This document shows positions 1-41,627 of a DNA stretch of 64,000 bases, one piece after another. The notes under the pieces are model-generated. The model searched no databases and was not told the origin of the DNA. It saw nothing but the letters and a program-made list of their open reading frames with translations. The translations under genes were made by a program, and so were the position numbers. The DNA lies in NCBI GenBank assembly GCA_025765615.1, contig JAIVFJ010000322.1, forward strand, positions 1-64,000, written 5' to 3'. The stretch's first letter is position 1. The number at the start of each line of letters is the position of its first letter. This DNA is from Zopfochytrium polystomum. Taxonomy: Eukaryota; Chytridiomycota; Chytridiomycetes; Chytridiales; Chytridiaceae.

Positions 1-2651
1 AGACAGTCACTCTCAGCCACACAAGAAAGAAAAGACACAGACAGAGACAACAAGGAAGAAATAAAAGAGAAACAGGAAAAACAGGAAAAACAGGATAAAT
101 TACTAATTGGAAAAATAAGTAAAAATCATCAATGAAAAGATAAAGAAAACCCCTGTGATCTCATACCCTTTTTATGAGGTATTACATCATGGTAGCAGGT
201 GGTAGGGCTTGTTAGCTCTGCCATCATCTTGTTAACTCTGTCCATCTGGGCTTAGCACTTCTCCCACAGAAGTGTTTCAGTCCTAAGTCATTTCCAAAAG
301 CGAGGGGCCATTGGCCAAGCATAGCAAGACTTTGCATTTCTGCTCAGTCTGTCAACTAGCATGTCTCAAACTTGGCACCTTCCCAATAGAAGGAGCACTC
401 TAACCACTGAGCAAGGGAACCTTGTATCAGCAATTAGAATCAAGACTGAGTCTTTCTGTCTGCAACATCGCCAATAATAAATAATAATAATAAATAATAA
501 TAGTAGAGCTCAGAGGCAGACGGATGGAGCCAGTCGGAGGCTGTATGGAAACCCAATAAATAATAAGAGAGTAGGAATCCAAGCCTAGCCACATTTTGCC
601 AGCAAAACGCGGGTCGAGACAGGGTGGTAATCCTCACAATTACCAGTTAAAAAGTGGGTATACACTTAATTTATTTGAGGTCACAGGCTCGACAGCCTGT
701 CGTCCTCACACGCCATTTCCGCTACATCAAGATCGCTACCTGCCTCACTGTAGAGCAGTGTGATTCCACAAGAAGGCCCCCCATCGGGTGCAAATTTTGC
801 AGAGAAGCCATTGACGAAAAAGTGGAATACTGGCAAAGACGACTGTGGGTGAAGGACTTGCAAGGTGTGGAGAAGCTTCAGGCCGTCATTGAGCTCAAAA
901 GGATAGTTCTGGTGAAATCAAGCAACTGAACAAATGGGGCAAGGTCGTTTGTGACTGGATCCATTCATCCCGTTCTTGAGTGCATGGAGAAACATTGTGG
1001 AGGTGACATGAACGTCTTTATCTCGAAGTTTGGAGCCAAGTTCAATCCTACAATGAATCTTTCCCAAAGCAAGCCAAGTTGTGTGACTTGAATGTGTTAG
1101 GCAGAACTGACTGGTTAGCAGCAAGAGGCACAAGACGGACCCAAACCTATTGTGACTGTCAGTTATCGTTCTCACAATGACCATGGGAGAGCGAGCCACT
1201 GCCAATGCAGACCTGGGCGCTGGCTTGCTCTGATGACAAATACTCCGAGTATTAAGTGGAACAGAAACCCGGTGTCAACAGTTTTCCTCCTCCTCTGCTC
1301 AAGCAGATAATATAGGAGAGGTTCTTACCCTGTGTCAGTCACGCTTGCCTAGCAACTATTACAGCGTGTATATCATCATCATGTACCAATAATTCATAAC
1401 AGAGTTTTTCTCTTTCTCTCCAAGTTGGGGAGAAGGACCACCCACAAACACACATCTCCACTTCATTCACTCCTTCCACTCACTCACTCAGAGTCGACTG
1501 TTTACAGAATGTATGATTGTGTGGTGGTTGTGCGAAAGGTGTGATGGTTGTGCGAAAGGGAAATAAAATCAACGTGAAGCAAAAAAGCAAACGCTCTATT
1601 CTCTTCCTCCTCCTCCTCCTGCTTTAACTACACCACACCTCCGACAGCGGATTCAGGTGGACCCACAGCTCCATATCTCTGGCGGGCTTGTTCAGCCCAT
1701 GAGGGGGTTGCATGAGGAAAATGAAATCATCGCAAATAAAATAAAAAAATAAAAATAAAAAAGTCAGGAAATAAGATGTGGCCGAAAGCAGTTTTGAGGA
1801 GGACGGAACGCGCACCCCGTCGTCTCGGCCTTGCAGCAGGTGGATTCGCTGGCCCCCACCCGGAGTGACACAGCTTACCTGTGTTTGTGTTGGCTGTGAC
1901 TTCTCATCTGTTGGGTTGAGTGGTTGATATTGCCAAACTGCGTTTTGTAATATCTTTTTCTTATTTTATTCCACCTTTTATTGATTCTTTTCACTCCTTT
2001 TTATACCATTTTCAGAGGTCTCCCATAGCTTCCCAGAACAAATAATAATTGTGGAAAAGGTTGCAAGGACGTCTCCCCGCCTCCTGTCTCCCACACACAT
2101 GATCTGGATCTTACAAAAATGAAAGGTTGCCGTCATGGCCTTCTCAGCTGGTAGAAAGTGGACTGATTCTCAACAGTCATTATCCCCGGCGCCATCCGCC
2201 TTTTGTCTGTAATTCCTCAATGCTCTTGTCTCTCCGGACCAATTGCAGTACGTAATCGCAGACTGAGAGACAGACGCGTGAGCAAGCGATCGAGCCGATC
2301 AGACAGACAGAGGTGGCTATCACTCGTTTTCATTTATCGTTGGCCAATGGGGAAAGAGGGAAATCATCCTCCAATCATATGTGGGCTCTCTTCCACCCTT
2401 TATCAACTGATAATGCCCAAAGAAAAGGCAGAGATGTTGATTGCATGATTGATCGATGCTTTGCAGAATATTGATGTAAATAAAAACCCCCCCTGCCCTG
2501 CGGGGCCCCACTCCGCCTCTGGCAAACGCACAAACTGTAATCGCCGTCGACTCGCACTCGCTCCCCCCCCGTCCCGACCAATTGACCACCTCCGCCATCC
2601 ACGCACGCACGCACGCACGCACGCACGCACTCGTCGACCGCGTCTTCCACC
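1..2651. other. AT-rich gene-poor region upstream of glutamine synthetase
   Basis: I see no supportable gene here. Open frames are short (90 codons or less) and resemble no family I recognise. The stretch holds a TAA/AATAA-rich tract near 475-560, T-rich and A-rich tracts near 1730-1765 and 1950-2000, and a near-exact direct repeat of a TGGTTGTGCGAAAG-type unit near 1525-1560. A tRNA-like SINE relic is listed separately at 352-420. A tandem ACGC tetranucleotide at about 2600-2630 lies directly upstream of the glutamine synthetase start and probably falls in its 5' UTR or promoter. The composition contrasts with the GC-richer genes that follow. It most likely represents degraded repeats plus the glutamine synthetase promoter. 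Confidence 0.5.
352..420 (-). repeat. tRNA-derived SINE-like relic
   Basis: Read on the minus strand, this stretch has a D-arm and A-box-like element (TTGCTCAGTGGTTAGAGTGC), an anticodon-like hairpin (CCTTC paired with GAAGG), then a weak B-box-like element (AAGTTTGAGACAT). The D stem GCTC/GAGT pairs well, but the T arm is poor, so this is not a functional tRNA. A similar D-arm-like element lies at 52145-52210 in another AT-rich island. Both are preceded on the plus strand by a related GGACTTAGCA / GGGCTTAGCA stretch. I infer a tRNA-derived SINE family; genome-wide copies would settle it. Confidence 0.4.
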
Positions 2652-3888
2652 ATGTACGAACTGCAATCAAACACGGAAACCTTGGAAAAGTGAGAATCTG
2701 GCGCGAAAGCCGTCTGTGCTGTTGCGCAACAGGGGCACTGAGCTGAAAAAACTGCACATCGTCCACGTGACACACTCAGATTCCTCGCCCTTCCTCAAAA
2801 TGGCTCCATCATGGCCACCTACATCTGGATTGGTGGCTCCGGAATGGACATTCGAACAAAAACCAAGGTTTGGGGTTTCCGTTTCACGTTCACAGAAGGC
2901 CTACCGGAAGCACCAGCACTCTAACATGATGCGGCAGACCCTGACCAAGATTCCCACCTCGCCATCCGAGCTTAGCGAGTGGAACTTCGACGGCTCTTCA
3001 ACCGGGCAAGCAGAGGGACATGACTCTGACGTGTACATCCGTCCTGGCGCAATTTTCAAGGATCCATTCATGGGAGGTGACAACATTCTCGTCATTTGCG
3101 ACTGTTACAACAAGGACGGCACCCCCCACGTCACGAATGGTCGCTCCAAGGCACTGGAGATTTTTAACAAGACTCTGGACGAAAAGCCTTGGTTTGGTCT
3201 GGAGCAGGAGTACACTCTCTTTGATACAGACGGACAGGTTCTTGGCTGGCCAAAGGGAGGCTTTCCTGGCCCTCAAGGTCCATACTACTGTGGTGTTGGC
3301 GCCGGTCGTGCCATTGGTCGTGATGTTGTCGAGGCGCACTATAAGGCGTGCTTGTACGCTGGTGTCAAGATTGCCGGAACCAACGCAGAAGTGATGCCGG
3401 CCCAGTGGGAGTTCCAAATCGGCCCAGCAGAGGGCATCGAAGCCGGTGATCATCTTTGGGTCGCCCGCTATATTCTGGAACGTGTCGCTGAAGACTTCGG
3501 AGTGGTTGTTTCGTTCTCCCCAAAGCCCATAAAAGGGGACTGGAATGGTGCGGGTTGCCACACGAACGTGTCCACTGCGTCAATGCGTGTGCCTGGCGGA
3601 ATGAAACACATTGAGGAGGCAATTCAGAAGCTGTCCCTTCGGCATGACGCCCACATCGCTGTGTATGGAGAGGGCAATGACGCGCGTCTAACTGGCCACC
3701 ACGAGACTGCCAATATCAGCACCTTCCTGCACGGAGTGGCCAATCGCGGAGCTTCGATCCGCATTCCCCGGCCAGTCGCTGCGCAAGGTTACGGTTACTT
3801 CGAGGATCGCCGCCCTGCATCGAACATGGATCCTTACAAAGTTACGGGCATCATCATGGAGACTATTTGCGGGCTTGCTGGTGGGTGA
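2652..3888 (+). CDS. glutamine synthetase (type II, eukaryotic)
   Basis: This enzyme makes glutamine from glutamate, ammonia and ATP and is normally cytosolic. Exons by hand: 2652-2689, 2780-2867, 2938-3888. The introns of 90 and 70 nt have GTGAGA and GTTTGG donors, and the second has a CTAAC branch point. Splicing gives an N-terminus [20 protein letters not shown] that runs into the beta-grasp segment ([10 protein letters not shown]). Conserved landmarks are all present: [14 protein letters not shown], the catalytic-site [57 protein letters not shown] and [19 protein letters not shown]. The C-terminus is uncertain. Direct reading ends at TGA 3886-3888. A GTGGGT donor at 3881 could instead splice to 3966 and add a tail ending at TGA 4058-4060. 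The family call is firm; the start rests on the splice model. Confidence 0.93.
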
Positions 3889-6410: not shown

Positions 6411-6441
6411 TCCGGGCCAGCAATAGTCCCAAAATTCGTCA

Positions 6442-9042
6442 ATGATCACGCACATGGTCCGCACGGCCACCGCAACCGTCCAACTGCGACATAGCAGCTT
6501 CCGCAGGACTCCTCGCCCTTCGATCCAGGCAGCCGATGCCCAGTTCGGTGTGATCACTGTTGAGCGCTCCCGGTCTCATTGGGCTACTGGGGCTCTCTCC
6601 CTCCGTGCGCCGTTTTCACGGAAGTCATGGACAATATGTGGGCAGGCCTCGGAACTTCGTCGATTCCCTCGCGCCGGAGGCGCGGCGATACGCTCCGCAC
6701 CATTGCAGTTGTCACATCCCTCCCTCTCGTACTATCCGAATGGTTGTATCGGCGCGCCTATTTTTTTCTCGTCGTCTTCGACGTCTGGGCGATCGTCAGC
6801 ACCGTCGCCGACAAATCCGCAAACATCAGGCGCAGAACCCCCAACGTCAGTAGCGAGCAAAGAACCTGAGCCGGGCTCCTGGGCCGCAGATTGGCGCATC
6901 ATAAAGGAGCTCACTAAGCACCTCTGGCCAGTGTCAGAACATCCAGGCCGATCCTTTTCGGTGAAACTCCGCGTAGTCGCTGCCCTGACTCTCCTTGTGT
7001 CGGGGAAACTGCTCAACGTCAGCGTGCCCGTTTTCTTTAAACACATCGTTGACGCCCTCGGCGTTGCCATAAACCTGTCCCCAACATCCTCGTCCGCCGT
7101 CATAGCGGTTGCCTCGCCAGCGACCCTCGGCACGACTGCAACGCTGGTGGGAGGCGTTGTCCTTGGGTACGGAGTCGCTCGATTCGGGGCAGTTCTTTTT
7201 CAGGAATTTCGTAATGCCATTTTCGGCACTGTCGCCCAAGGGGCAATGCGCGACGCAGCACGAGACGTTTTTCGCCGGCTTGTTGCACTTGATATGCGAT
7301 TCCACTTGTCTCGCCAAACGGGCGGCCTTGTTCGCGCCATCGACAGGGGCACCAAAGGCATCCAATCAGTCCTCTCGTCAGTCGTCTTCAACGTCTTCCC
7401 AACTGGCCTCGAGATCGGCCTTGTTTGTGCGCTAATGGGATATCAGTTTGGTTGGCAGTATGTTGCCGTTACAGTCAGCACATTGCTAGCATATTCGGGA
7501 TTTACTGTTGCCACTACGGCGTGGCGCACACAATTCCGTCGCCAGATGAATTCGGCAGATAACCAAGCTGCGACAAAGGCGACTGAAACCCTGCTAAATA
7601 TTGAGGCTGTGAAGTTATTCAATAACGAACGATTCGAGTTGGGCCGGTACGATGAAGCATTAGCGAAGTACGAAAAGGCTGCGCTCAAGACTACTACGTC
7701 ACTCGCATTCCTCAATGCGGGACAAAATGTTATCATCACCACCTCTCTTACGGCGGTAATGTTTCTTGCTTCTCACGGCGTATTAGAGGGGAGTATGACG
7801 TTGGGAGACCTTGTGATGATCAATGGTTTGCTATTTCAACTATCGGTGCCGCTCAATTTTCTGGGGATGGTCTACAGAGAAACTCGGCAGGGCCTCCTGG
7901 ACATGGATACTATGTTCCGGCTGAGACGAAATGCGGCAGAAGAGGAGATTGTAAGGACAGATACTGGCCAGTCTGTCAGCGTGTTGCCACCACTATTACT
8001 TGATTCGAAAGGAGGCGAACTCAAACTCGAAAATGTTTGGTTCTCTTATACTGCGGCTTCAGCGGCGACCGCACCGAAGCTGAACGTGCCCATCCCTCCC
8101 GCAAAGCCCACCGGAGCCGCCAGCAGCGACCTTGGTGGCAGTGACCCTCAGTTAGCCGCATCCCCAGATGGCACAAGTCAGGATAATGATCCTGTTCCTT
8201 CCCACCTAGCCATTCTCAGAGGAGTCAACCTCACCATTCCCGCAGGCACCACAGCCGCTCTCGTTGGGCCGAGCGGCTGTGGAAAATCGACTGTTCTCAA
8301 GCTGCTCTTCAGGTTTATGGACCCAACGGCAGGCACTGTTTTTGTTGACGGGCAAGACCTTCGGAGCGTCGACCCTGACTCTCTTCGAAAGGTTGTCGGG
8401 GTTGTTCCTCAGGATGCGGTTTTATTCAATGGCACGGTCGAGTATAATGTGAAGTACGGTCGTATTGGCGCGAGTCCTGATGACGTCCAGGCAGCCGCAC
8501 GAATGGCACTTCTCTTACCCCCAAAAGATGGAGACGACGGCTTGCAGAAGGCCCGAGGACTGCCAAACGGTTTGGACACACAAGTTGGCGAACGAGGTCT
8601 CAAGATAAGTGGAGGAGAAAAGCAGCGCGTGCTACTTTCGCGATTATTCTTGAAGGTTCGTTTGAGAGCTTCCCCCCTCTCCCTGCAACTTTTTTGACCG
8701 TCGGGAGAACTCACTTCTTTGAAACGACAGAATCCTCCCATTTGCCTCTTTGACGAGGCCAGCTCTGCGCTGGATCAGAACACCGAAACCGCAATCCACG
8801 CCAATATCAGCAAGTTTTTGCAGTCTGCGCCAAATGTTCCGGATGGAACGGCCACCGCGAAGGTACTGCCGCATACGGCCGTGTTTGTTGCCCACCGGCT
8901 GTCGACAATAGCGCACTGCGATCAAATCATAGTGATGAAGGAGGGGCGGGTAGTCGAGACGGGCCGCCACGAGGAGCTCCTTGAAGTCGCGGATGGGTTG
9001 TACGCAAGCATGTGGCGGTCGCAGCAAGAATCCCACGCTTAA
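6442..9042 (+). CDS. mitochondrial ABC half-transporter, Atm1/ABCB7 type
   Basis: It is predicted to export a glutathione-linked sulfur or Fe-S precursor from the mitochondrial matrix for cytosolic Fe-S protein assembly. Exons 6442-8655 and 8731-9042 flank a 75 nt phase-0 intron (GTTCGT donor) and give about 841 residues. The first about 140 residues are Arg/Ser-rich with few acids, as in a mitochondrial presequence; Met at 6457 is an alternative start. A six-helix membrane domain follows, then the nucleotide-binding domain with Walker [10 protein letters not shown], the Q-loop region [14 protein letters not shown], signature SGGEKQR, Walker [13 protein letters not shown] and H-loop VAHRLST. 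Family blocks such as [10 protein letters not shown] and [14 protein letters not shown] point to Atm1 rather than another ABCB. Odd point: about 45 Pro/Ala/Ser-rich residues interrupt the domain between its first strand (LENVWFSYT) and [13 protein letters not shown]. The neighbour on the other strand starts only about 30 bp away. Confidence 0.92.
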
Positions 9043-9181: not shown

Positions 9182-12100
9182 ATGTCGCCTGCGTCAGCAT
9201 CGACAATAGCGACGACAACAGCGGCGGCGGCAACGGCGGCGGCGGCGGCGGCCTTGGCGGATAGCGACGGTGGTCTAGACCTCCTCCTCGACGGAGCCCA
9301 AAGCGTTGAAGGCGGGCACGATGTTTCCAGTGATTTTGAGTTCTGCGCGGAGGCGTACAAAGACGTCCGCAGAAAGAGCTCGCAGCTAAGGTTTTTCGAC
9401 CAAAGGGGCGATATCTCTGCCGCTCAGGACCGCTCCACGGATTTTCCTCCGGCTCCATCACTGTCAACAGCAGCAGTCCTTGCGGCTGTCGCGGACTCTC
9501 CTTTTCATATAAAACATACAAAGTCCTCGCTTCGAGCCGCGTCTGCTCCTTCTCGTCGATCTCGCCACGATTCAAATTCTCTCGCTGGCGAGGACTGCAA
9601 GGGCCATCACGCCACCACTGCCCCTACAAACATGCCCACTTTCACACCACTGCCTCCGGCTCCTCCCGCAACGGCCCACCGGAGGTATAACAGCGTGTAC
9701 CCATGCGCGAATCTTTTGCTCGCTAAGCGGTGGGATGAGGCAACAAGGGCTCGGCATCGGCAAAAGTTGGCGACGATGCGGACCTACATCGACGACACGC
9801 CGCCAAAACGTCATGGCCATTTGAGAGTTCGACTTAAAAAGCTTCAAATGGAAGAAGGTATCGGCACAGTTTGACGTTTACTGTTTCCCTTGCCCCAATT
9901 GTACCACCTTTCTAATTATTTACCCACTCGCATAAACCACCGACCATTTTCGGGCGCGGGCAGAGAAGAACGATAAAATCGAGCGAGAGAATGTCATTCT
10001 CCTGGAGCGCATGGCCCGTCAGATGGCTGAAGTCCAAGGCTTCTCAGGCGTTCCTGGACGCGAACGAATAAGGAGGTCTGCGCCACCGTTTGCGCCACCA
10101 CCGGTTAGCTTGAGGAAAAAAAAAGAGATGGAGGCCCGTATCGAGGAAGCGAACCAGGCAGGTGATTTCCTCTCTACATCTTCTTCATGTATGGAAAATT
10201 TCGCAGAAAATCCGGTAAGGAATACTAAAATGCCTAGGTTAGATCTTACTACAGCGCGTGGAAGCACGCGAGCCAAATTATCGGCAAGACGCGTGGGATG
10301 CGGAGCGGCGAACAAATCTGGGCTACTTGCAGAGGATTTCGCGATTTCCAGAGGGTTACAGACATGTGCTGGATCGCGAGGGCGTACCTCCCCCATCTCA
10401 AACTTTAGGACGACGTTTAATTGTACGCGGCAATCGGAGTGAGCGGTTGCGGGGAGGAGCAGCAGCAGCAGCGGCAGCAGCCGTCTCGGCAGCGGCAGAA
10501 GCTAGCGGTCTAACATATGCTGGTGAGGGCAAACGAGCAAGGACGAGAAGCGCAGAGGAACCTGTGATGGTCCACATGACGCGGGCGCAGATTCTGCGGC
10601 TTGAGTTTCTTAGCCGCCAAAATGCAGCCACACCCAGCTCTGCGTCCACCACTGCCGGGAATGTTTCGGATGAGTCTGCGGATGATCAACCCACAATCCC
10701 AGATATGGGATCCCCAACGAGCCATCGACGACTAAAAGTGCGAATGAATCGCGCGCAGCGACTCCGTGTATCAGATCATGACGCAAAATCACAGGCCAAC
10801 TCGACCTCGCCAAAGCCGCCTTCTCACCTCGACAATGTTGAGGCCCGCGTTGACTTTGGGCAAGATGGTTGGCACGAGGGCAGCGCAAAGGCTGCGGAGG
10901 CAGCCGAACGAGAACGTGAAGCCCTTTTGAACGCATCGGAAGTGGATGTGGGTGAGTTCGAAGCAGATGGTGCAGACAGTGGTCGCTTGCGTGGGCGGAA
11001 AGGGAGCGTATTGGATGTGGTCACTGGTGTTTCGTTTCGATCAGGATGGGAGGATTCAAATACCACTAACCGCCCCGCATGTGCTCGAATTTACATGTCG
11101 TGCGCGGAGGGAAGTTGGAGTTATGAGCGGAAAGAGATCCACGAACGAATTCTCCCGTCGATGCGGAGCTTCGCGTCAACTCTTGGTGTTGAGTTACTGT
11201 GGAGAGACATGCAGTGGGGAGTTCCGTGGTCTATGGTGGATGCGCACTGCTTGCAAAGCCTCCTCGGAATCGAACAAAGAAGGTGTGCTGAGGTGAGTAA
11301 ATCTTTCTAGGCTGGGAACGGAGAGAAATCTCTTGACTGGCATTTCATTCAGTATCCAGGCCGTGTTTCGACAGTTTGCTTTGTTGGTCCTTCGGCGAAT
11401 CAAAAGGGAATTGTTCCCTTGGCGATAAGCGTACCGTCAATGGACTACTTCAATGAGTTTCTCGACAGCAATGAGACACCTGGCCGTGATGTTCTTCGAA
11501 AATGGTACAGACTTGATGCAAATCTTGCCCCGCCAGCATATGTTCTGCAAAGTATTTCGCTCGGTTTGCTTGGCCACTCAAAGCAGGATGTGCGACACAC
11601 CGCGGACGCGTGGGAGGCGTGGAGGTAACAAGAAAGAGTTTTAGCAAGCACCTGGACTGAAAATATGTAACGTGCCCCATTGACACAGCTCCGAAAAGTC
11701 AAATCTCGTCAAAAATCTTGCAAGGGCTTGCAAGAGACTGCTCGAGGACGAAGACGCAGACCCGATGCCCGAGGAGGATGTAGAGTCGCTCCAAAATGTT
11801 GATGCAGTCCCACAGCAGTACGAGGCATTAACTGCTCTAGCCAGACCAGAGGGAGCAACACTAGCAATTTTTTTTTATGATGTTGGCAACGTCACGCGCC
11901 AACTAAGTTCTGCGGGTGAGGACGAAGACCTGGAATCACTTAAGCAAGGCTTTCGAGAGAAGTTGCAGCCGGAATACCTGTTGGAACTTGTAAGCTGGTT
12001 TCTTTCGTAAAATTCTTGCCTGACAGCCACATTCAAGGCTGCGCCAGCTCAGGTCTTCGACGAGACCACCAAACACACTGGCAGTAATCGCTTATACGAT

Positions 12101-15100
12101 TTCCTTTCTAACCATCTTCGGGATACACTTCAGAAAACGCGAGAGTCAACCCTGCCAAGCGATATTCTGTACTCGGAAATGGCAAATCACATCAAGTCCT
12201 GCCAGCTCAAATCCCGCCGCTTTGTCGGGAAAGCGCGCCTGATAAACAAAGTAATTGGGTACTTTGAAACCAAGTCGCGCCAGGGTGTCCCTCCCCTGCT
12301 GATCACCGGTACGACTGGTAGTGGAAAAGCGTCGCTTCTCTGCCGAGCTGTCGAAAGGCTTGTCTCATCGACCCTCTCCGTTTCAACGGGAAGGTCATCT
12401 ATGCCGCTTACGATCTTTCGCGACGTGGGGCTGACCTCATCGTCACGCACGCCGATAGGACTACTTCGATCCATTTGCACACAGTTCCGCCGCGCCATAT
12501 ACGCAATGGAGGATGTCACGATGGATGCTGATGCCGTTCTGAGGCGATTCGGACCAACATTTGCCGCGGACTACACACCGAACGACTTGCCTTCCCTTAC
12601 GACCCTCTTCTCATCCTATCTCACGTTCGTCGCCCAAAAGCGCCCAGTTCATGTTATCCTCCTCCATGCAGATAAGCTCTGCTCGGATGTCGAAAGTAGT
12701 CCATTAAGTTGGTTGCCTCTCGAAAACAACGACCCCAATGTCCGTGTTGCGATAACGCTCTCGTCCTCATCTGTGGGACTCCTTGAACGCCTGCGTGCGC
12801 GCTCATTAGCGATAACTTCCGCGCTGGTGACGGCCGGATGCGACTTTCTTGGTGCAACTTTGATCGAGCTGGACTCCATCGATATTCAAACTTGCCACAT
12901 GGCATTGACACGATGGTTGAAGCAGGACCGTCGCAACTTGACCCTTTCACAACGCCGTAGCGTTGTGGCGACTGCAACGCAACCGACACCTGAGTCGCCG
13001 GTGCATGGTTGCGCTACGCCGTTCCGACTGTGGTTACATTATCTTAGGTCACGTTTGTGGCACTCGTGGGAAGAACCGGCTCCAATGTCATCCTCGACTG
13101 AAGCGACACTACTGGATGGAATCTTCGACGTAATAGAGGTGGCCGTTGGACGTGCTCTCACGTCACGATTTTCCAGAGTGCTGTCGGCAATGAGGGATGG
13201 TGCCATGGAATCGGAGTTGGAGGATTTACTCAGCATTGACGAGGGGGTAATGGCTGATGTCGTGCTCTGGCAGATTGAATCCGTTGGCGCACAAGGGACG
13301 TGCCCGATTATTGTTCCTCGCGTTCCACATGCCGTGATTGCAAGGTTACTGCAACTTTTTGAGTCAACCTTCGGACTTGTTGAACGTGTCTGCACCGAGG
13401 CTGGTATTGTGCTGATAGTATGGACAAATCCTCTTGTTCGAGAGACATCGATTCGGAGATACGGGACTGTCGACCACAGGGTACCCCAAAATGTGTACAG
13501 CGATATTGCTGGATACTTCAAAAACGAGTTCTCGGCAGTCACCGGACCCACTGTGGATTCTCTTGGGAAGCCAGTTGTTCCAGTTTTTGCGATCAAATGC
13601 AAGCTTAAAGAACAGGACGAGAACTTTCATGTCGACTTGAAACCCCATGCTCTACTTCCTGTTCACTCTCTTCATCTAGTGTCATTGGATGAGCAAAGTT
13701 TCTCGTTCAACACTCGGTTATTCAAAGAATTATTTCCCGCTCTTGTTCTCTCGCAAAGGTGGCACGACCTTCAAGACTTGGCCACGAACTTTGCGTACTT
13801 CGAGGGTTTCTTACGAGTCAATGTGAGTTTTATTTCTCATTACAATAGGACTAAATCCCATGAAGGGCGTTGACGAGTCTCTAAAGCTATTCCACTGGAT
13901 GGCTAAGGAGGGGAAACGGCCTGGCAACTCAATGCCCACAGAGTGCCAACTTCTTATTAAGCATTTAACACTTTTTTTGCGGCAACGGTCCCAAGTATTC
14001 ACATTTTTCGACGCAACCACCTCAGTGCATCCACCCGGCTTATGGTTGCAAGAGCTCCACAATTTTCCCTCGATGTCTTCCGCGAAGTTTGCGGAGGCTC
14101 TTATGTCCAACTTAGAAGAAAATTGGGATGACTATCTGGGCCCTCGAGGTGGTCGCTTAGAGTGAGCACAATATCATTTTTCCTGCAAAGCTTCGTGTGA
14201 GTGATTTTTTGGCAATAGGTTTGACCCAAACTGGAAGCCTGACTGGGATTCTTATGTCGCCACGCCCATTCGCCACACCCTCGTTCAGTGCTGCGCAGTA
14301 TCTGCTGATGGAAAGCTTCTTGCTACTGGTGCCGAGGATGGTGGTGTTCGAATTTGGTCGATTCAGTCAGGAGAAGAGCTGGATTGCTTCACACATCTTT
14401 CGACAAATGCCAGAGATAAGAGCAACAATGACGAAAGCGACGAAGCGGGCACGATCCTGCCGCTCAAAGCTGGAGTCACTTGCGTATCATTTTCCGGGGA
14501 GAAGCCTCCATTTTACGTCGTCAGCTGCTCGCACGATCCGCACTCTGAACCAATGATAAAACTCTTTCCGTTACGACAAGCGGTTGCGGAGAAAACGCTC
14601 GCTGGCGCGCATTCACGCGGAGCACTGATAGTGAAATGCGAGTTTTTATCGCCAGAAAATCGCCGGATTGTATCAATAGGCACAGACTTTAATGTTGTTC
14701 TCTGGGAGGCGGCGCGCTGCCGCATTATTCGCATCGTTCCCTTCCAGCACCTCGAAGTGTCGACCGAACGTCCCATCTCGGGAGCGAAGAAGGGAGGATC
14801 GCAAGGCAAACAGATGTCCATAGAGGACAAGCGACGGCGCCGTTTTCCGTCAGGCTGGCCTCAGGTGGCCGGTGCGGTGTCGAGTACTGGTTTATTTGCT
14901 TTCGGTTCTGCACAAATCGCCGTGATGGATGGTCGCTGGCGGGAGCTACTCTTACGCGACCTGAATTGCATAACAGATAAAGAGGTTGTGTCATGGCACC
15001 GACTTTCTGCCGCAACTTTCAACTCTGACTCAACTGTCATATATGCGTCATCTGGAGTGCCGCCCGACGACCAGCAAATGATGGCAGTTGAAAAACAGCA

Positions 15101-17189
15101 GACGATTGAGCGTATGAACGCAAAACAGTCATCTCGTGCAGAAAGCGTGAATGCAGGTGACGGTGATTTCCCCGAGCCACCTTCAAATGCGCATTCGCCA
15201 TTTATGGCTGCAAACATGGCAGCAACAGATGCTGAGGGGGAGATCAGAAAGGCTCGACTCTCCATTATACGAGCATGGAATCTACACTCTGGACATCAAC
15301 TGCTGTTTTTTTCCATCTCCGATAGTGTAACCTCTTTGAACGTTTCCCCGAATGATTCCTTTTTGTTAGGTACTTGCCGAAGCGGCGCCATAACTGGATG
15401 GAACAGCCAGACTGCGCAACAGGAATTCTGCCGCTTTGGGCATGCCAATACGGTCTTGCAATTGTCAGTAATACCACCGGGATCTCGCCGGGGAAAGCGT
15501 GGCACCATTGCGGAAACGGACGACTCGGGAGTTTTTGGATATTCAAGCCCAACCACAACACTGAGCACGTCCAGGAGCCTTGCATCCCTAAGCTCTGCAG
15601 TCAGTCTACCCGTTCAATTTGCGACTGTTGGCACCGACGGGTTAGCGCAATTATGGAGCATCCCGGCTGATCAACCAGATCCTGGTCATAGTCCCGTTAC
15701 AGTCGGAAAGTTCAGCCGATCCGGGGAGTTTTTCCTCACAATAGGGGGCTCACTTTGTACTCACCACTCGAGGCCAAATGCACTCATCCGCTTATGGGAA
15801 TCTGTAAATGGCACCAATCGGTGCAAATTTGAGCTGCCGGAGACGTTCCGAACAGAAGCTATTGGCGCCGCCTTCTTCCCCGGTGATGAGTCCAAGGCTT
15901 TCATTGGATGCAGAAATGGCGCGGTGCGAATCTACCGGGTGAGAACAGGGGAGGTGATCAAGGAGTTTTGGGCAGATGTTGAGCTTGCTTTGGGCGAGGC
16001 AACACTGCGGCGAAAAGTGGAGTGGCCTTTCGCAGCCACGGGAACAAGCGTGCTCACGTACGCCTTGCACCCTGATGGAAACGTTCTCGCTGTAGCCGTT
16101 GCTGGAAACGAAAGAACGGCGGAGCCATCCTCTACCAGTGTCCAAAGCTCGTTGCGCAAAAGCGTGAACGCAGAAGCCGAGCTGCTAAGAGGGCTGGAAA
16201 GCGCCGGACTTCGAGACCTGGCCGAATACGCCAGGAAGAGTGCGACAACGCCGCATGCTCATCATGACCCAGCCGAAAGATCCGGAGATATGGTCCTTCG
16301 CGATCGCGTCCAACTGACCTTCTGGGACATTGACGGCAATCCCCTATGCAGCGATGGAAGTTTCTTTTTCCCCATCTTGTTTAACATTTCTGATGTTTCG
16401 TGCCCAAGCGTCCCAAGTAGCCATTTACCGTCTCTGAACCGTGCAAACAGCTTTGTGTTAAAATGGTCTCCCGACGGAAAGTCTTTATTTGCCAGCGATG
16501 ACTGCGATGTGATCAAGGAATGCTCCATCGACATTCGGGATAAGACTGTCACTGGCATTGTTGAATCTCGTTCCATCGCAAAAATCATTGGACCAATGGT
16601 GTGGAAACAAGGTTCAGCTTCGTGGAACTGTCGGGCGCTTCCGCCAAACATTGCTCAAGGAAGCGCGAACATGCCGTCTTTTAAAACAACGATTTCTTCT
16701 GCGACCGCCTTCAGCGTCATGACCATCAAAAATTGCGAGTATCTTTGTTTCGCCTACGGTCCGGCTGTTATTGGATTGCGTGTGCGAAACTTGGCCAGCA
16801 GGGTTATGGGAGAAGTGCACTGGTACCTGGGCCATTCGGCATTAGGGTCGGCAGCTGGGAACGTTATTGGATGCGAGTTTGTCCCGAACGTACCTGGGAA
16901 AGGCGAAAAGGTCGGTCATGCTAAAATTGGGGTTACAGGTGTCATTGTCAGCGCCAGCGAAAATGGGACAGTTCTTGTACAGGTATGAGTTAAAGAAATC
17001 ACCGCTGCGCTTCTGAAAAATCTACAGGACGTAGTTTCGAAAGAGATCTGCGCAGTCTTCCACGCCGGGTCACCTGTGCGCTTTATGAGCCTCAGTCCCC
17101 TTGCCGCCAAAGCAAGTTCTCACAATCGCCTCCGCATTGCGCTGGGGAAAGCAGATGGAACAGTTGTGTTTTTACGGTATTTTCCATGA
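9182..17189 (+). CDS. CFAP97 domain - DUF4062-like - NACHT-like - WD40 fusion protein
   Basis: Nine exons: 9182-9857, 9964-10214, 10255-11292, 11353-11624, 11689-11989, 12038-13822, 13866-14161, 14219-16982, 17028-17189. They keep one frame for 2,514 residues. After a low-complexity N-terminus, residues about 181-275 form a CFAP97/Hemingway domain: MRTYIDDTPPKRHGHLRVRL, LKKLQMEE, then across intron 1 KNDKIERENVILLERMARQM. Exon 3 alone carries the end of this region and, from about residue 587, a DUF4062-like segment (RIYMSCAEGSWSYER, GVELLWRDMQWGV) as in NWD1- and NPHP3-type STAND proteins. A P-loop-like element GTTGSGKA lies at about 937-944, with Ala where Ser/Thr is usual. From about residue 1540 there are degenerate WD40 repeats (LATGAEDGGVRIWSI, VSIGTDFNVVLWE, FATVGTDGLAQLWS). 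Intron 2 (40 nt, GTAAGG donor) is the weakest splice. The join of the two halves is unusual. I infer a flagellum-associated scaffold or signalling ATPase-like protein; this has not been tested. Confidence 0.82.
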
Positions 17190-17444: not shown

Positions 17445-17948
17445 ATGTCAGCAAAGCTCATTGACGCAACGATCGCACAAGCCAATGTGGCCATCTTCTC
17501 CAAGTCGTACTGCCCGTACTGTTAGTAGCTCAGCGCATCCACTTTGCGCTCGAAGCCAACAGCCCCTTACCCTGTCGATCTTCCGTTCCACTTTTCCCTT
17601 CTCCCCGTCAACCCCACGAATCTTTGCAGGCCAAAAGGCGAAAGCGCTGTTCGACTCGCTGAACGTGCCTTACACTGCCCTGGAGCTGGACCAGCGTGAT
17701 GACGGTTCTGACATTCAAAGCGTCCTCGCAAGCAAGACTGGGCAGGTGCGCACATTTCTAGATCGTTTTCAACCCGTTCCCTCCCTCTGCTGTCCTCCTT
17801 GCGAATCGGCGAGCTAAGCAGAAACTCTCATTCAACAACGCAGCGCACGGTGCCCAACATTTTCATTGCCGGCCAGCACGTTGGGGGTTGCGACTCTGTC
17901 CACGCGTTGCACGCAAAGGGAGAACTGAAAAAGCTGTTGAAGCTGTGA
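17445..17948 (+). CDS. dithiol glutaredoxin
   Basis: A small GSH-dependent thiol-disulfide oxidoreductase. Exons 17445-17520, 17630-17745 and 17844-17948 give 98 residues. The first intron splits the second active-site Cys codon (T|GTTAGT...TTTGCAG|GC), and splicing restores CPYC, the classical dithiol active site, followed by QKAKALFDSLN. The cis-Pro element TVPNIFIAGQHVGGCDS and the final helix (ALHAKGELKKLLKL) match class I glutaredoxins of normal length. There is no obvious targeting peptide, so it is probably cytosolic. Possible roles are reducing mixed disulfides and feeding ribonucleotide reductase. The family assignment is secure. Confidence 0.93.
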
Positions 17949-18127
17949 GCTGGGCTGGGGAATTGGGATTTGGGGGTTTTGGCGATGCTTGGATCGTGTC
18001 CGGGTTTTTGGTCTGGAGGAATACAATGAAGTACTATAGTTCAAAAAGCCTGTCTGGTCGGTTGTCAATAGGAGCTATATTCCCAGACAGCCTTTCGCAG
18101 CGCTCCTCCACATTAGAAAAAAGCTCT

Positions 18128-27667: not shown

Positions 27668-28761
27668 TCACAGCTGCACAGCCACAAGAAAAGCCAACCC
27701 CCAAATGGCACTTGAAATCGTCGCAGAGCGGCGTCCGGCGCTCGTGGACGACGATGCAGGCACCGAGGAAGACGAGGCGAGCGAGCTCCTCCTGGTCGAA
27801 GAAGAAGAAGAAGAAGAAGAAGAAGTGGAGCTGGTCTGAGATGGGCTGGTAGCCAAAGACTCTGTCGTGGACTCTGCGCCGTTGGAAGTTGCAGTTGTGT
27901 CTCCTGTCGAGCTCTGCTCCGACGAGAGACCGTCTCCAGAAACTGAAACTGTAGTTGGGGGGAGGGTATCGCGTTTGGTCGAAAAGGTCAAATTACAAAG
28001 AGAGAGAGGGTTCGTGTGTGTGTGTGTCTGTGGGAGGAGGCTCACCGTTTTGCAACCTCGAGGGAAAGTCCATCGAGCTCAAATTTTGCGTAGGAGTTGG
28101 AGTTGGCGCCGGAGCCGCCTCTTCCGGCGAGCCAGCCGGAACGGGAGACACGACCCCTTGGGCGGGCAGACCGACCGAAAACCCCGTCGAGGGGGTGTTG
28201 GGCGCTTGCAACGACGCCCGCTGCCCGTCCACCGGTTCAATTGGGGCAGGATTGCCGAGAGGAGGAGTCTGCTGAGCAGAGGGTGGATTCGCCTGTCCCA
28301 GGACAGCGGTGGCCCTTTCTCGATTCTCAATGGGGGCTATGGCTGTTGGGTTGTTTGGGATGTCGGCCGGAAGACTGAACTTTCCACATTAAAAGAACGG
28401 TGACGAAAGTGCGTGCTGCGGCCTACCTGGCTTGAGGCATAAACGCGGTGACCGTGGTTGTCAGCGTAACAAGTGATGGCATGGAAGTCTGGGCCGGCGC
28501 AGGTGGTAAGATCGAAGCGTCAGGGGGAAGCGGTGGGGCGGCTGGCTCTTCGACAGCTGGCGGAAGCACGGAGGCGGCCGGACTAGTTATGACGGCTACG
28601 GGTTCCTCCAACACCACACTGCTTGGAGCGGCCGGCAGCTGAGCACTGTACACCGTTTGCGTGACAGTCACGGTCACCACCTGCGCACTGGCAATGCCGA
28701 CCGCTGAGAGGAGGAAGGCGATTTTGCTGAAATACAACATAGAGGCAAATTTCACTGGCAT
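27668..28761 (-). CDS. GPI-anchored, Ser/Thr/Pro-rich surface protein
   Basis: A secreted wall or plasma-membrane protein of unknown specific role. Minus-strand exons 28761-28427, 28374-28046 and 27948-27668 have introns of 52 and 97 nt, giving about 314 residues. A signal peptide (MLYFSKIAFLLSAVGIASAQ) follows either Met1 or, more simply, the Met at codon 8. The mature part starts VVTVTVTQTVYS and continues as Ala/Pro/Val-rich repeats, then exon 2 with many Pro and Ala (APAPTPTPTQNLSS). Exon 3 holds a Ser-rich run (TSSTSSSSSSSSS), and the protein ends in a small-residue site plus hydrophobic tail (SATISSAIWGLAFLVAVQL), the usual GPI-attachment pattern. It lies 220 bp from, and on the same strand as, the giant Ser-rich protein gene, which suggests a cell-surface pair. 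Confidence 0.75.
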
Positions 28762-28984
28762 CTAATAGGGGTTAGCGGAGGTGTGGTTTTATAGCAAATG
28801 ATTTATGCTAATCTTAAGCTTTATTTCTTTTATGCTTTGCAGATTTTAGCGTCGATCACATCAAGTGGAATGATCATTGGGTGGTGAGAAACACTGGTCT
28901 AAACGCAACAAGGTTGAAGAAAGAAAAAAAAAAAGTAAAAAAAAAAAAGACATTCTAAACGAATCGAAAATTTTGGCAACGAGC

Positions 28985-31900
28985 CTACGCGGCGTTGGCG
29001 GCTTCGCCAGAGCCGCCAACTTCGTCCCGCCGCTCTTTCGTAATTCTAGACTCCGTCCACCAGTTGGTTGGCCACCAAGATGGGGGGTTGTCGTCGGCGC
29101 CATCGCGTTTATTGTGCGGGGGATATCTCGCTCCCTCAGTCGCTTTTGCTTGCTCCTCCGTGCAGGACTAAAATGTGGAACAATGCAGAGACTTTAGTCA
29201 GAAATTGTCTTCTGGCAAACTAAAATGCAAATCGGTGGCTAACCGTTGATGTCGAAGATGGCTTTACCGTCGGCTTCGTGGTACTCTTGTATCTATTTTC
29301 TGTGGGGAGTGGTTTCGCAACTGAAGCCGATGTACTGTAGGCTTTGGGAGGGGCGGCAGATGTTGTAGTATGAGGAGCGTATTTGACCGTCGTTGAAGAA
29401 GTGGCCTGAGCGAGGCGAGGACATTAGCAAGGAATAATGTAAAATGGGCGACGTTCTTCCACAAACCTTCTTCGTCGAAGTCTTCGCGTGTTTCGTCTTC
29501 TTCGACTTCGTCTTTTTCGTTTTGGTCGACTTCTTCGCCGATTCGGCCTTTCCGGCCGCCGTACTTGAAGTACTGTACGCCGCGTGAGAAGTCGAAGTCA
29601 CTGTTGTTTTCTTCGGCTCTGATACGGAGACGGTCGGTCGACCGGCATACGGCACACTCTTCACTGAGGAAGGCTTAATGGAAGCAGAGCTCGACGGTTT
29701 TCCGGCGTAAGTTGCGTGGGAGGTCGCAGGCTTCGAGCTTGACTTTGCCGTTGAAGTCGCATGCGTAGCCGCCTCCTCTGTGCACGTCGTTTCCGCAGGT
29801 GCATCCTTCGTTGTGGAAGATGGCTTGTTGTATGCCGAGCTAGTTGAGGATGGCTTTCCTCCATAAGCTGGTTTGGTGGAGGTAGCTTTAACGGACGTAG
29901 AGTGAGACGAAGATGTCTTCGCGACATAGCTGGTGTGAGCTGCAGATGAGGAGGACTGTTTGGAGGTCGAAGACGGTTTTGGACCATAGCCCGACGAAGA
30001 AGTTGACGTTTTCGACACAGCCGAGTGCGCTGTGGACGAGTAAGCACTCTTGTGCGAGGCCGATGATGGTCCCGCCTTTGCGGAAGAGTAGGCAACGTGA
30101 GTCGAGTGAGATGAAGCGGCTGCCGACGATGATTTAGAGGCCGTCGAGTGCTGCGACTTGGCATCATAGCTGTGGGACGATGCTGCCTTTGACGAGTGCG
30201 CGTAAACCGACGAAGACTTTCCGCCGTACGTAGGGTGGGATTGTGACGACTTCGCGGCACTGGAAGAGGAGGAGTGCAGCTTTGGAGTGTACGAGATCGT
30301 AGATTTTGTGTGCGAAGCGTAAGTGGCTGGCGATGAGGCAGCTTTCTTGGTCGACGACGAATGAACGGGCGTTTTGTACGCAGACGAAGGAGAGGCAGAT
30401 GACTTCACATGACTGGAGTAACGGATTTCAGTTTTGTGGATTTCTGTGTGAGCAGACGACGAGTAAGTGCGTGCCGAGGGAGTAGCGTGGGAGGGCGTTG
30501 GCTCCTTGCCAAAGTTCTTGGATGACGATGTTTGCGGAGCCGCTGTCCTGCTCGTCGGAGTAGGTTCCTTGCCATAAACCACCCGAGAGGACGTTGAGTA
30601 TTTACCTGAGGAACTGGCTTTTGTGACATGCGACGAAGTTCGGGAAGGATGACCAGCATAGCTACTGTGCGAGGATGCAGGGGCCTTTGACGTCGATGTG
30701 TGTGAAGCTGATGAAGAGGAGTGACCATACGCGGGTGTAGCTTTCGAGGAGGACGAGGAACTGTGTGAAAGGTAGGAAGAGGCCGAGCTAGCTTTTTTGG
30801 ACGTGGAGTAGCTTGGTGGCGTGCCTGAAGAAGCTGCTGCCTTCGAGGTAGACTTAACGTAAGACGAAGTCTTTGAAGTTGTAGTGTAGGACGGCGTTGA
30901 CGACGGCTTCGCGGACGAGCTTTTCTTCGAGGAGTAATGCGAGGAGACACTACTTGCCGCAGCCTTTGATGTCCCAGCAGATGAAGAGTGTCCATAGCCG
31001 GGTGTTGTCTTCGCCGTTGAGCTTGACGATGACGAGGCCGGGTGCGATGATGAGGTAGATTTCGCCTTGGTGTAAAACGTTTTCGATGACTTGGGCGGCA
31101 CAGCAGAGCTATAATGATGGGTCGAAGTGGGTTTTGCCGACGAGGTGTGGCTGTATACAGTCGAAGACGACGGCGTCGGATGGGGCGTGCCGTAGGACTT
31201 GGATCCAGTAGCCTCTACGTGAGTCGAGGAAACGAGTGTGTAGCCTGAGTGTGACTTCGACGACGACTTTGACACCTTCGAAGAGGAAGACGACGAATGA
31301 TGCGACGAATAGGAAGGTGTGCTTGCAGCCTTCGAAGTTGACTTCGAGTTTGAAGGTGTGCTTGCAGCCTTCGAAGTTGACTTCGAGTTTGAGTACACCG
31401 GCGGCACCTTGGACGGAGTCGACGAATGGTGCGAACTCGACGATGACTTGGACGGATGGCTGTATACGGGTGAAGCCTTTGACACAGAACTGGACGAATG
31501 CGACGCCACATAGGAGCTGGTGGAGGGAACTGCCTTTGAAGAAGTCGTGGGGCGAGTGGACGCTTTCGAGGAGCTCTTTGACGAGTTCGGCGAAACGTGC
31601 GACGAAGTGCTCGCAGTCTTAGAACTCGTAGGTGCCGAGTGGCCTGACGATGGCTTCACCGTCGACGACGAGCTTGGGTGAACGGTCTCGTGGGAAGATG
31701 ATCCGGCAGACTTTGAATGCGTCGAAGAGTATCCATGATTCTTCGACGATGATGTGGTATGATGGGAAACGTACGAAGACGACGGGCTTCCCTTTACAGA
31801 CGACGAAGCGGTTGGGTGACCGTATGAAGATGTCAGAGTTCTCTTCGACGAAGTCTCATGAGCGACGACGGACGAAGACGTGTGCCCGTAACTCGCGGGA

Positions 31901-34900
31901 GGTTGCTTCGATACAGAGCTCGATGAGTGGTACGAGGACTTTGACGAAACAGATTTCGAGCTGTGAGCAGTTGATCCTTTGGATGAATGGTACTGCACCG
32001 AGCTGCTTGAGGATGGCACGGTGGTGTGTTTGGCGGACGTGGTCGTTTTGTGTCCATAAGCAGGCGTCGACGAAGAAGCTAGGTGAGACGACGACGTGGA
32101 AATCGCCTTGGTGTAGATGACAGGAGTCGTTTTGGAAGAGGCGGAGGGCGCAGCCGAGCTGGAGTGATATGATGGCGTCGACTTGTGCGAAGACGTCTTG
32201 CTATACACCTCAGATGACGATTTCGACTTGGACGACTTGGGCGTGCCGTAGCTGGTCGACACTGAAGCCTTCGAGTGAGTCGAAGATGAATGGCTGTATG
32301 CAGGATGCGACTGGGCCGAAGAATGCGAGTAGGCAGGAGAAGAAGAAGGTGCGACAGTCGCTTTCGACGACGAGTGGCTGTACGTTGGCGAAGCCTTTGA
32401 AGAGGGCAGTGATGAATGCGAAGCGGCGTATGAAGATGAATGAGATGACGGTTTGGATGACTTTGAGGAATGGCTGGAGACGACTGAAGATTTCGTCGAA
32501 TGCGACTTGTCGTAAGAGGTTGACAACGGTCCTGACTTAGTCGACGACGTGTGCTGAGTGTACGCATTGGAGGAGCCCTTAGATGACGCTCGTGAGGAGT
32601 AATGTATGTCGTGGGACGAAGAGCTTGCGACCTTGGCACTCGAAGACGCAGTGTGGCTGTGAGCGGATGATGGCTTCTGCGTCGATGATAGTGACGGTGT
32701 GTGTCCGCCATACGATGATGAGCCGGCAGTTTTCGTGACCCGCTTTGTGGTCGACGACGAATGGTGACTGTAAACAGGAGAATCCTTCGATTCGGACGAG
32801 GAAGAGTAGTGGGAAACGTGTGAAGATGCCGTGGTCGGTTTCGCAGACTGAGAGGTTGTGTGCGTGTATGCCGAGGACTGAGGCTTCTTTGACGTCAACG
32901 GCTGGCTATACGAGGCTGTTGATTTCGATGACGGCTTGGAGGACTTCGATTGGGCGTAGCTCGAAGAATGACCATTCGACAATGAGCTTGACGAGTGGGG
33001 TGCGACGTACGAGGAAGCCGGGGTAGTCTTTGACGAAGCCGATTTTGAGCTGTGAGCGGTCGGCTTCGACGAGTAATGCACCACGGAAGTGCTGTGGGAC
33101 GCGGGTTTCGCCGAGGACGACGAATGTCCATAGCCAGGCGTCGTCTTTGCCAAAGAAGTTGCGGAGCTCGATGTCGCAGGAGACGAAGATGTGGAAACCG
33201 CCTTAGTGTAAATTACCAGACTCGATTTTGAGGACGCAGTCGAGTGTGTGGATGCAGTCGAGTGTGTGGATGAAGGCTTCGTCTTGATTGAGGACGTGTA
33301 GCTGTGGATCTTCGATGTTGCCTTGGAAGAAGACGACTGATGGGGTGTCCCGTACGGCGAGGATTCAGCAGGCTTCGAATAAGCCGACGAAGAGTGGCTG
33401 TAGCCAGGGTGCGATGTTGTCACGGAAAGAGATGTGCTTCCTGCCTTTGAGGGGTGGGGGGCGTATGATGTGACTGACGATGCCACCTTCGACGACGAAG
33501 AGTGCTGAGTGTACTCTCCCGATGTGCTCTTGGAGGAAATGTATGGAGGGTAGGGCGCCACGTACGACGAACTGCTTGCATGCTTTGAGCTTGCGGACGC
33601 CGAGTGGCTGTAAGCAGTGGAAGGTTTTCCTTTCGATGACGACGAAGTGTGCGAAGCAGCGTAACTGGACGACCCGGAGGCTTTTGGCGACGATGACGAA
33701 GAGTGGCCGTACGTTGGTGGCGCCTTCGCCGATGAAGAGGAAGAGTGGTGTGAGCCGTATGAGGATGCGGTGCTTGGTTTCAAAGATGAATGAGGTGACG
33801 GGCTCGCAGACGACGTCGAAATTCCTTTCGAGGACGAAGATGAGTGCGCGTACGAGGATGTTTGAGGAGCAGCGTGAGAGGACGTCGATGACTTCAAAGA
33901 TGACGTCGAATGGCCGTAAGTGGTGGGGGGCGCTTTCGAGTAGGTGCTCGACGTGTGCGATGCGGCGGTCTTTGACGAATGCGACGTTGATTTCGAATCG
34001 TAAACGGTCGAGGTTTTGGCCGATGTCGAAGTCGAATGTTCGTAATGAGGGGTCGTCGAAGCCGGGTGGGACGTCGAAACAGAGACCACTTTGGTGTAGT
34101 TGGGAGGCTTCGCTGATGAAGATTGACTGTGTACCTTCGTCGAAGACGTCGCATAGTGGGGTGTACCAGAAGACGCAGATCCAGCAGACTTTGTGCCACT
34201 CGAAGAGGAATGACTGTACGCAGGATGGGTCTTTGGAAAGAGTTAATAAAGAAGGTTGGATTGATAAAGGGACTGGATGGAACATAGTGCATTACTCACC
34301 GACGAAGATGCAGACTTCGAAGGCTGACTGTAGACAGGTGTGGGCGCCTTGGTCGAAGACAGCGAGTGCGAAGAACCGTAAGACAACGCCGGCGATGCTG
34401 CTTTCGACGACGAAATGTGCTGGGTACTCTTCGATGACGCTGGCGGGGGGGTACGGTGGCACGTACGAAGAGCTGCCGGCAGCCTTGTGGCTTGACGTCG
34501 AATGGCCGTAACTCGAGGACGGCTGAGCGGTGGAATAGTGGGAAGTCGCGTGGGAGGACGAAACAGGCGACTTTGACGACGTCGAAGAAGAGTGGCCGTA
34601 TAGCGGGGTCGTCTGTGAAAATTAAGTGGCATGTGAGAAAGAACAATAGACGTTGAACTTTGAACTTTTACCTGTGATGAAGTGACCGGCGGGACATGTG
34701 ACGACGAGTATTGACCGCTGTGTGAAGAAGCCGATGACGATTTCCCGATGGAGGACGAGTGGCCATAGCTCGAAGGCGACTGCTTTGAAGAAGTTTGAAC
34801 AGGCACGTACGAAGTCGACGACGCTGCCTTTGACGTCGAGTGCGATGAGCTGCCGTAACTGGGCGGTTTTTTGGAAGAGGCTACGGAAGAGTGCGTTGCG

Positions 34901-40900: not shown

Positions 40901-40983
40901 TCGCCAACCCCACGGCCGGGCAGCGCCGATACCGCCGCCCCGGCTGCGGCCAGCAGCGCGGCGGCAATGGAAGCGACCCGCAT
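28985..40983 (-). CDS. giant secreted Ser/Thr-rich repeat protein (mucin/adhesin-like), about 3,700 residues
   Basis: Twelve minus-strand exons: 40983-40788, 40645-40507, 40379-40274, 40194-40135, 40063-36889, 36797-36337, 36287-35568, 35518-34672, 34612-34300, 34230-29467, 29405-29244, 29167-28985. All junctions keep phase, except that exons 5 and 9 each carry one extra base (see findings). The N-terminus MRVASIAAALLAAAGAAVSA is a signal peptide. Nearly all the rest is Ser (visibly dominant), Thr, Ala, Lys, Pro, Tyr and His in degenerate units such as YGHSSSSSSKA and SSYVAPYPPPKSS. A landmark, VIYTKAVSTSS or a variant, recurs about nine times at intervals of roughly 0.7-1.3 kb. The tail has a Lys-rich patch (KKTKSKKTKHAKTSTKK) and a short non-repetitive end with one Cys. 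I see no GPI signal. It is probably heavily O-glycosylated extracellular or wall material. Gene prediction could also split it into several genes. Confidence 0.72.
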
Positions 40984-41627
40984 GGGGGTGTGTGTTGTGT
41001 GTGTGGTTGGGTGTAGCTAGGCCCGCAGTCAATGTTCGGGGCGCTCGAGGGGAAAGCGGAGTTTTGAGGGACGGGGAGGATTTCTCTTTCTAGACTCTCT
41101 TTGGGGAGATTAGCGCGGCTGCGGGAAACGCGCCTGGCGAATTGAAATTCTTCAGAAAAGAAGTGCGCAGCGCCGTTTTTTATATCAGATTTTTAGCGGG
41201 TGCCGACAACTGTCAAACTTGTTTGCTTTCAAAAAACGCAAAATTGATTATCTTTCCGGACGTTCCATGGAGGTCTTTTTTTCTCTAGCCGGCTTCTCCT
41301 TCTATAACCCCCCCCGCGACCTACGACGCTCGCTTCGCTGCACCCCCGACGCTTGACAGCGTTCTAGCACTCCATCGGATTTACCCCCTTCGGGCTTGGC
41401 GACCAGCAGAGACAGAGAGAGACAACGTTCGAGAGTCCCGCGGTCGGGCGTCCCTTCCAGCTTCCGCCCCCCGGTTCTTGATTGGTGTTGAATTGACACA
41501 GGCGAAAGACTAGTAGTTGCTCGATGGCGTTTATTTTACAAGAATAAATGACGTAAGAATGAAAATGGTCGTTGCACCCAACCCGTTCCCTCCCACCATA
41601 TCACATTCGGTGCTGAATTTACTTTCT
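40984..41627. promoter_or_regulatory. intergenic region: promoter of the giant Ser-rich gene and 3' side of the zinc-finger gene
   Basis: No gene seen. Reading towards the giant gene (minus strand), the sequence upstream of its ATG is A/T-rich around 41160-41260. It includes a TATA-like TATAAAAAA near 41180 on the minus strand. That could be a core promoter element, although it lies about 190 bp from the ATG. The rest is 3' UTR of the zinc-finger gene. Confidence 0.35.

Follow-up and report, generated by a model that had tools for sequence, protein, structure and literature searches.

A CFAP97 module joined to a degenerate NWD1-like STAND region and WD40 tail in Chytridiales: a candidate flagellar scaffold protein

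A stretch of 64,000 nucleotides from the chytrid Zopfochytrium polystomum, here called the window, forms most of contig C322 (JAIVFJ010000322.1; 66,332 bases) in an assembly of 80.2 Mb and contains a gene of nine exons in which two unrelated protein architectures meet. The corrected gene product is one protein of 2,499 residues, composed of a complete CFAP97 region, a linker of about 230 residues, an NWD1-like STAND region (DUF4062-like part, NTPase and winged helix) and a WD40 tail, in that order (Table 1). The initial annotation of this locus had proposed nine exons at 9182-17189, a model that was reproduced with 2,514 residues and zero internal stops. Its claim that a single exon holds both the end of CFAP97 and the beginning of the DUF4062-like part is borne out by the frame 10243-11310, which is uninterrupted and includes the two. 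Lack of a CFAP97 hit in a profile search had been named as a refuting result, and the domain is matched by Pfam Hmw_CFAP97 with E 4.1e-15 and 56.8 bits (cut-off 25.6).

Seven of the eight introns in that model were kept, but the 40-nucleotide intron 10215-10254 is wrong, and the orthologues favor a GC-AG intron in its place (donor CAG/GCAGGT, acceptor GTTAG/ATC; slashes mark the exon boundaries). At the junction of exons 2 and 3, three orthologues read NQILMQRVEAR, NLMLMQRVEAR and NQTLMRRIEAI, and the GC-AG intron yields NQILLQRVEAR in frame. The earlier intron was rejected because it replaces four residues with 19 others found in none of the three aligned orthologues, and because it lowers the scores: Pfam CFAP97 reaches 66.3 bits with the GC-AG intron and 59.1 with the earlier one, both against the cut-off of 25.6, and five of five CFAP97 chains in the PDB score higher with the GC-AG intron (93.1 versus 85.3 bits for 8snb_4T). 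From residue 399 to the end, the corrected protein is identical to the public annotated model DFJ73DRAFT_875715 (P0001, 2,101 residues), an identity that covers the six introns after exon 3, while intron 1 rests on orthologue alignment. The public model, which is an annotation and not a transcript, starts at 10567 and omits CFAP97. The non-canonical GC donor just upstream may be the cause of this omission, which would make the locus an example of how a GC-AG intron can conceal a domain from annotation. Were the same intron retained, the exon 2 frame would run on until the stop codon at 10440-10442, and the result, possibly an alternative isoform, would be a short product with CFAP97 alone and no tail.

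Table 1. Features of the fused gene in the window
Feature	Position	Strand	Basis
Exon 1: low-complexity N terminus and first part of CFAP97 (from residue 157, base 9650)	9182..9857	+	ATG 9182, in-frame upstream stop 9071; Pfam PF13879
Exon 2: middle of CFAP97; end moved from 10214 to 10157	9964..10157	+	Orthologue alignment; Pfam and PDB scores rise
GC-AG intron, substitutes for intron 10215-10254	10158..10242	+	Orthologue alignment; Pfam and PDB scores
Exon 3: CFAP97 tail (to 10362), linker residues 331-560 (10363-11052), DUF4062-like start	10243..11292	+	Continuous frame 10243-11310; eight-species alignment
Linker motif copy 1, VRGNRSERLR	10423..10452	+	Gap-free block test
Start codon of public model DFJ73DRAFT_875715	10567..10569	+	P0001 comparison
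Linker motif copy 2, VHMTRAQILR, directly after public start codon	10570..10599	+	Gap-free block test
Linker motif copy 3, VRMNRAQRLR	10738..10767	+	Gap-free block test
Exon 4: DUF4062-like part and WYRLDxN.xPPxYVLQ signature common to NWD1-like proteins	11353..11624	+	Alignments; identical in P0001
Exon 5	11689..11989	+	Identical in P0001
Exon 6: pseudo-STAND NTPase and HTH_NWD1-like winged helix	12038..13822	+	AAA_16 E 8.8e-6, below cut-off; STAND/AAA+ fold matches
Degenerate Walker A GTTGSGKA, residues 922-929	12308..12331	+	Alignment
Leucine codon at Walker B aspartate position, residue 1040	12662..12664	+	Alignment
Exon 7	13866..14161	+	Identical in P0001
Exon 8: WD40 region, length sufficient for two propellers	14219..16982	+	Pfam WD40 E 7e-13; predicted model and fold search
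Exon 9: WD40 end and stop codon	17028..17189	+	Identical in P0001

The N-terminal part of the protein is a full CFAP97 module of about 170 residues, C-terminal tail included. Its best structure match is sea urchin sperm CFAP97 (8snb_4T, E 1.9e-25), with an alignment that extends through the tail; the other PDB matches are CFAP97D1 of 8otz and 9v10 and the CFAP97 proteins of 9e2g and 9e78. By their titles, 8snb, 8otz, 9e2g and 9e78 are doublet microtubules of sea urchin sperm, bovine sperm, T. brucei and Leishmania tarentolae, respectively. Elsewhere in the Zopfochytrium genome, three more loci match CFAP97 above the family cut-off, L001 (contig C83), L002 (C20) and L003 (C5). The frames around them show CFAP97 sequence and the genes apparently stand alone; the paralogues on C20 and C5 have, by eye, a similar C-terminal tail. 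A STAND query of the genome gave strong matches at the fused gene only (six of six candidates scored) and no match on C83, C20 or C5.

The initial annotation had joined CFAP97 to a STAND-WD40 protein, and the same order is present in single annotated proteins of other zoosporic chytrids. Three protein searches, the third with a five-member profile, scored 7,985, 7,973 and 7,997 candidates. The first two between them yielded eight fused-type chytrid proteins, from Zopfochytrium, Dinochytrium, Obelidium, Entophlyctis sp. JEL0112, Siphonaria sp. JEL0065, Chytriomyces confervae, Physocladia obscura and Irineochytrium annulatum. Matches without CFAP97 were excluded before counting, namely P0005 in the first search and P0010-P0014 (five of 12 matches) in the second, which also failed to recover P0004, one of its own query rows. 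All eight species found among these candidates belong by taxonomy to Chytridiales, and the fusion may extend beyond this order. PF13879 appears in the precomputed Pfam lists of six of the eight annotated models, and the family CFAP97 profile matches seven of 18 fetched proteins, these being the chytrid ones except P0001; the remaining ten have no match. Within the fused proteins, conservation is highest in CFAP97, with a mean pairwise identity of 67.6% (28 pairs), as compared with 41.0% (linker), 39.9% (DUF4062-like part), 36.0% (the stretch that follows), 41.5% (NTPase), 44.8% (winged-helix part) and 45.7% and 46.1% (the two WD40 halves). Trees of the CFAP97, STAND and WD40 parts have three groups in common, Zopfochytrium with Dinochytrium and Irineochytrium (the latter two as a pair), Obelidium with Siphonaria, and Entophlyctis with Physocladia, as is expected from long physical linkage; the position of Chytriomyces is without support in the WD40 tree (0.145).

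From sequence comparison, the fusion of CFAP97, STAND and WD40 in one protein is almost certainly real. The locus might otherwise hold two adjacent genes: a CFAP97 gene would end at about 10.4 kb, an NWD1-like gene would begin at 10567, and the frame that joins them would be a matter of chance or of minor read-through. The start of the public model and the CFAP97-only product of intron retention agree with such an arrangement, yet residues 291-398, upstream of the public start, align in frame with the orthologues, CFAP97 lies in the same chain in six of the eight annotated proteins, and the public start immediately precedes copy 2 of the three related linker motifs. Two genes are a very improbable explanation. 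The three motifs, each of ten residues and of the VRxNRxExLR type, lie at residues 351, 400 and 456 and are conserved in eight species. For the motif pairs, 8, 1 and 7 of 9,666 linker block pairs (gap-free 10-column blocks) score equal or higher, a statistic that is descriptive because the motif was picked by eye before testing. The motifs possibly constitute a second binding segment.

Sequence relationships identify the C-terminal part, DUF4062-like stretch through winged helix, as NWD1-like. The five-member profile matches a protein whose Pfam list includes DUF4062 and NACHT (E 9.2e-42) and, at E 5.6e-27, an NWD1-like protein from a catfish, Clarias; the latter match is collinear across the WYRLDxNxVPxxY signature, NTPase and winged helix. 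HTH_NWD1 is above its cut-off in Irineochytrium (28.2 bits versus 27), below it in Zopfochytrium (16.1 bits), Dinochytrium and Entophlyctis, and without a match at E 0.1 in Obelidium. PF13271 (DUF4062) has no match in the fused proteins scanned with Pfam; an eight-protein profile aligns with residues 12-194 of P0015, which has PF13271 in its Pfam list, at 71.7 bits. AAA_16 is below its cut-off of 32.6 in Zopfochytrium (26.8; E 8.8e-6), Dinochytrium (18.1) and Irineochytrium (31.5). Between the NWD1 and NPHP3 types, both suggested initially, the direct match to the Clarias protein and the HTH_NWD1 domain that passes in one orthologue favor the former. NPHP3 was rejected as the closest family, with NPHP3_N at 15.6 bits in Zopfochytrium and 19.6 in Irineochytrium against a cut-off of 24.8. 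A match to a TEP1 chain at the DUF4062-like part (E 0.019) was too weak and was not used.

The WD40 region is matched by Pfam WD40 with E 7e-13. Models predicted from eight sequences have a mean predicted local distance difference test (pLDDT) of 64.5 in exon 6 and 57.1 in exon 8. Fold searches with these models matched exon 6 to STAND/AAA+ chains with a winged helix and exon 8 to double-propeller WD40 proteins, in both cases at low template modeling (TM) scores. Axonemal doublet WD40 proteins are among the exon 8 matches, which are uninformative on location because double propellers match each other generally.

The nucleotide-binding motifs are degenerate in the fused proteins. None of the eight has the aspartate of Walker B (hhhhD), a position taken in each by leucine or isoleucine, and the Walker A GK[S/T] is kept in one of eight: Zopfochytrium has GTTGSGKA and Dinochytrium GPQGVGKG, five others have lost the lysine, and Irineochytrium alone is canonical (GPRGTGKT). 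Among six unfused relatives (P0005, P0012 and P0015-P0018; P0010, P0011, P0013 and P0014 are outside the Walker comparison), the Walker B aspartate and GK[S/T] are both present in six of six and the full GxxxxGK[S/T] in five, P0018 being without the first glycine. Two NWD1-like paralogues of the Zopfochytrium genome itself, L008 (C9:281006-281605) and L009 (C10:504148-504738), lie on contigs without a CFAP97 match and retain GPSGVGKSS plus LDALDEIS or LDGLDEIS; they serve as an internal control for the fused pseudo-NTPase. On parsimony, Walker B would have been lost before the split of the eight lineages and Walker A would have eroded later.

These motifs bear on the suggestion, made in the initial annotation, that the protein could signal. 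As a flagellum-tethered STAND switch, it would still bind and turn over nucleotide; in favor of this, sequence relationship and fold matches indicate a surviving STAND-type domain, Walker A is canonical in Irineochytrium, and its lysine is kept in Zopfochytrium and Dinochytrium. A signaling switch is unsupported, since all eight fused proteins are without the Walker B aspartate and seven without GK[S/T]; the same aspartate is kept in all six unfused relatives and in the two same-genome paralogues, and the Walker A lysine is absent in five of the eight. A working switch is unlikely. In Zopfochytrium, Dinochytrium and Irineochytrium, nucleotide binding without hydrolysis is possible.

Studies of flagella in other organisms offer a guide to the role of the CFAP97 module. 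Two papers place CFAP97D1 among the proteins of the doublet outer surface (PMC13406575; PMC11779644). A study of mouse sperm locates TSSK6 external to the seam and describes sperm without TSSK6 as also being without CFAP97D1 and EFCAB3 (PMC13066092); this result indicates that CFAP97D1 depends on TSSK6 and does not imply that CFAP97D1 recruits the kinase. In fly neurons, loss of a CFAP97-family protein breaks axonemes, according to another report (PMC10425847). The flagellar tethering that was initially suggested for the fused protein stands as an analogy, drawn from the solved CFAP97 proteins of doublet microtubules; both a flagellar location and a scaffold role are inferred. The gene product would be a single large scaffold protein of the zoospore flagellum, whose CFAP97 module binds the outer surface of doublet microtubules as its relatives do and whose linker spans outward from the doublet. 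The STAND/WD40 part would be the attached cargo, its switching by ATP hydrolysis lost, and the propeller surfaces may hold other axonemal or regulatory proteins, so that the pseudo-STAND/WD40 mass would act as a docking scaffold. The whole chain of an axoneme-anchored pseudo-NTPase scaffold carrying its cargo in cis is the preferred reading and more probable than not.

Several observations weigh against this proposal. The annotated Siphonaria model begins inside the CFAP97 domain and the public Zopfochytrium model after it; the public start at 10567 lies within the interval of about 10.4-11.0 kb that had been named beforehand as refuting, and the orthologues continue through that interval. The structure models are of middling confidence. 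The canonical Walker A of Irineochytrium and the retained lysines leave room for nucleotide binding, and with three other CFAP97 genes in the genome, the fused copy need not do the ancestral job. Those three genes could provide the axonemal role, and the fused CFAP97 might then act on cytoplasmic or basal-body microtubules, or only in dimerization or targeting, off the axoneme. This alternative is rather doubtful, given that the whole module including the C-terminal tail is strongly conserved and that its best structure match is an axonemal doublet protein.

Chytridiales zoospores may have an extra, lineage-specific outer-doublet part: a CFAP97 microtubule anchor would have captured a STAND/WD40 protein of the NOD-like receptor (NLR) type, which then lost ATPase activity and took up a structural or docking role, a scenario for which we consider the chances even. 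If so, doublets could gain outer-surface parts when a microtubule anchor fuses with a large scaffold unrelated to it, and an immune-type switch fold would be convertible into a structural part. The fused gene is a concrete lineage-specific target in the little-studied chytrid axoneme.

The fusion architecture is visible in databases. For instance, the Irineochytrium protein carries the database name NACHT domain- and WD repeat-containing protein 1, in which CFAP97 is unmentioned. No printed description, and no paper containing both CFAP97 and NACHT, was found in the literature searched, which left most subscription journals outside. CFAP97 is absent from the main text of a 2026 fungal flagellar protein atlas (PMC13358043), and the main text of the chytrid papers word-searched has no CFAP97 and, where asked, no NACHT or NWD1. 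Literature on NWD1 and cilia gave no axonemal NWD1 in titles or the beginnings of abstracts.

Elsewhere in the window, the neighbors at 2449-3888, 6427-9042 and 17446-17949 look like ordinary metabolic genes, glutamine synthetase among them. The neighbors also include what we take, by eye from sequence motifs, to be a mitochondrial-type ABC transporter and a glutaredoxin. The region 28000-44000 has a strong positive GC skew (0.16-0.32 in seven of eight two-kb windows) that spans a run of long minus-strand frames of 1,649, 433, 1,155 and 748 residues, one of which has a Pfam match at E <= 1e-5, to a C2H2 zinc finger.

The fused protein resembles several known systems in part. With the CFAP97/Hemingway family (PF13879; CFAP97, CFAP97D1 and CFAP97D2) it shares the whole module of about 170 residues with its tail, although the five PDB relatives have 158-231 residues and the chytrid module is the N-terminal part of a protein of about 2,500. 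NWD1-like proteins are alike in the collinear WYRLDxNxVPxxY signature, NTPase and winged helix followed by WD40; the chytrid fusion differs from them by its N-terminal CFAP97 and by the loss of Walker B in eight of eight proteins and of GK[S/T] in seven of eight. The CFAP97D1-TSSK6-EFCAB3 module of mammalian sperm doublets (PMC13066092) offers an analogy in that a CFAP97 protein is accompanied by further proteins outside the doublet; it consists of separate chains and includes a kinase, whereas the chytrid fusion is one chain with a pseudo-NTPase and WD40. Fungal NLR/STAND repertoires (PMC9815663; PMC12258605) have in common with it a nucleotide-binding STAND core and WD40 repeats. In contrast to these repertoires, the fusion is represented by one gene in the Zopfochytrium genome, keeps a constant order in eight species, and combines a degenerate NTPase with an N-terminal module of axonemal type.

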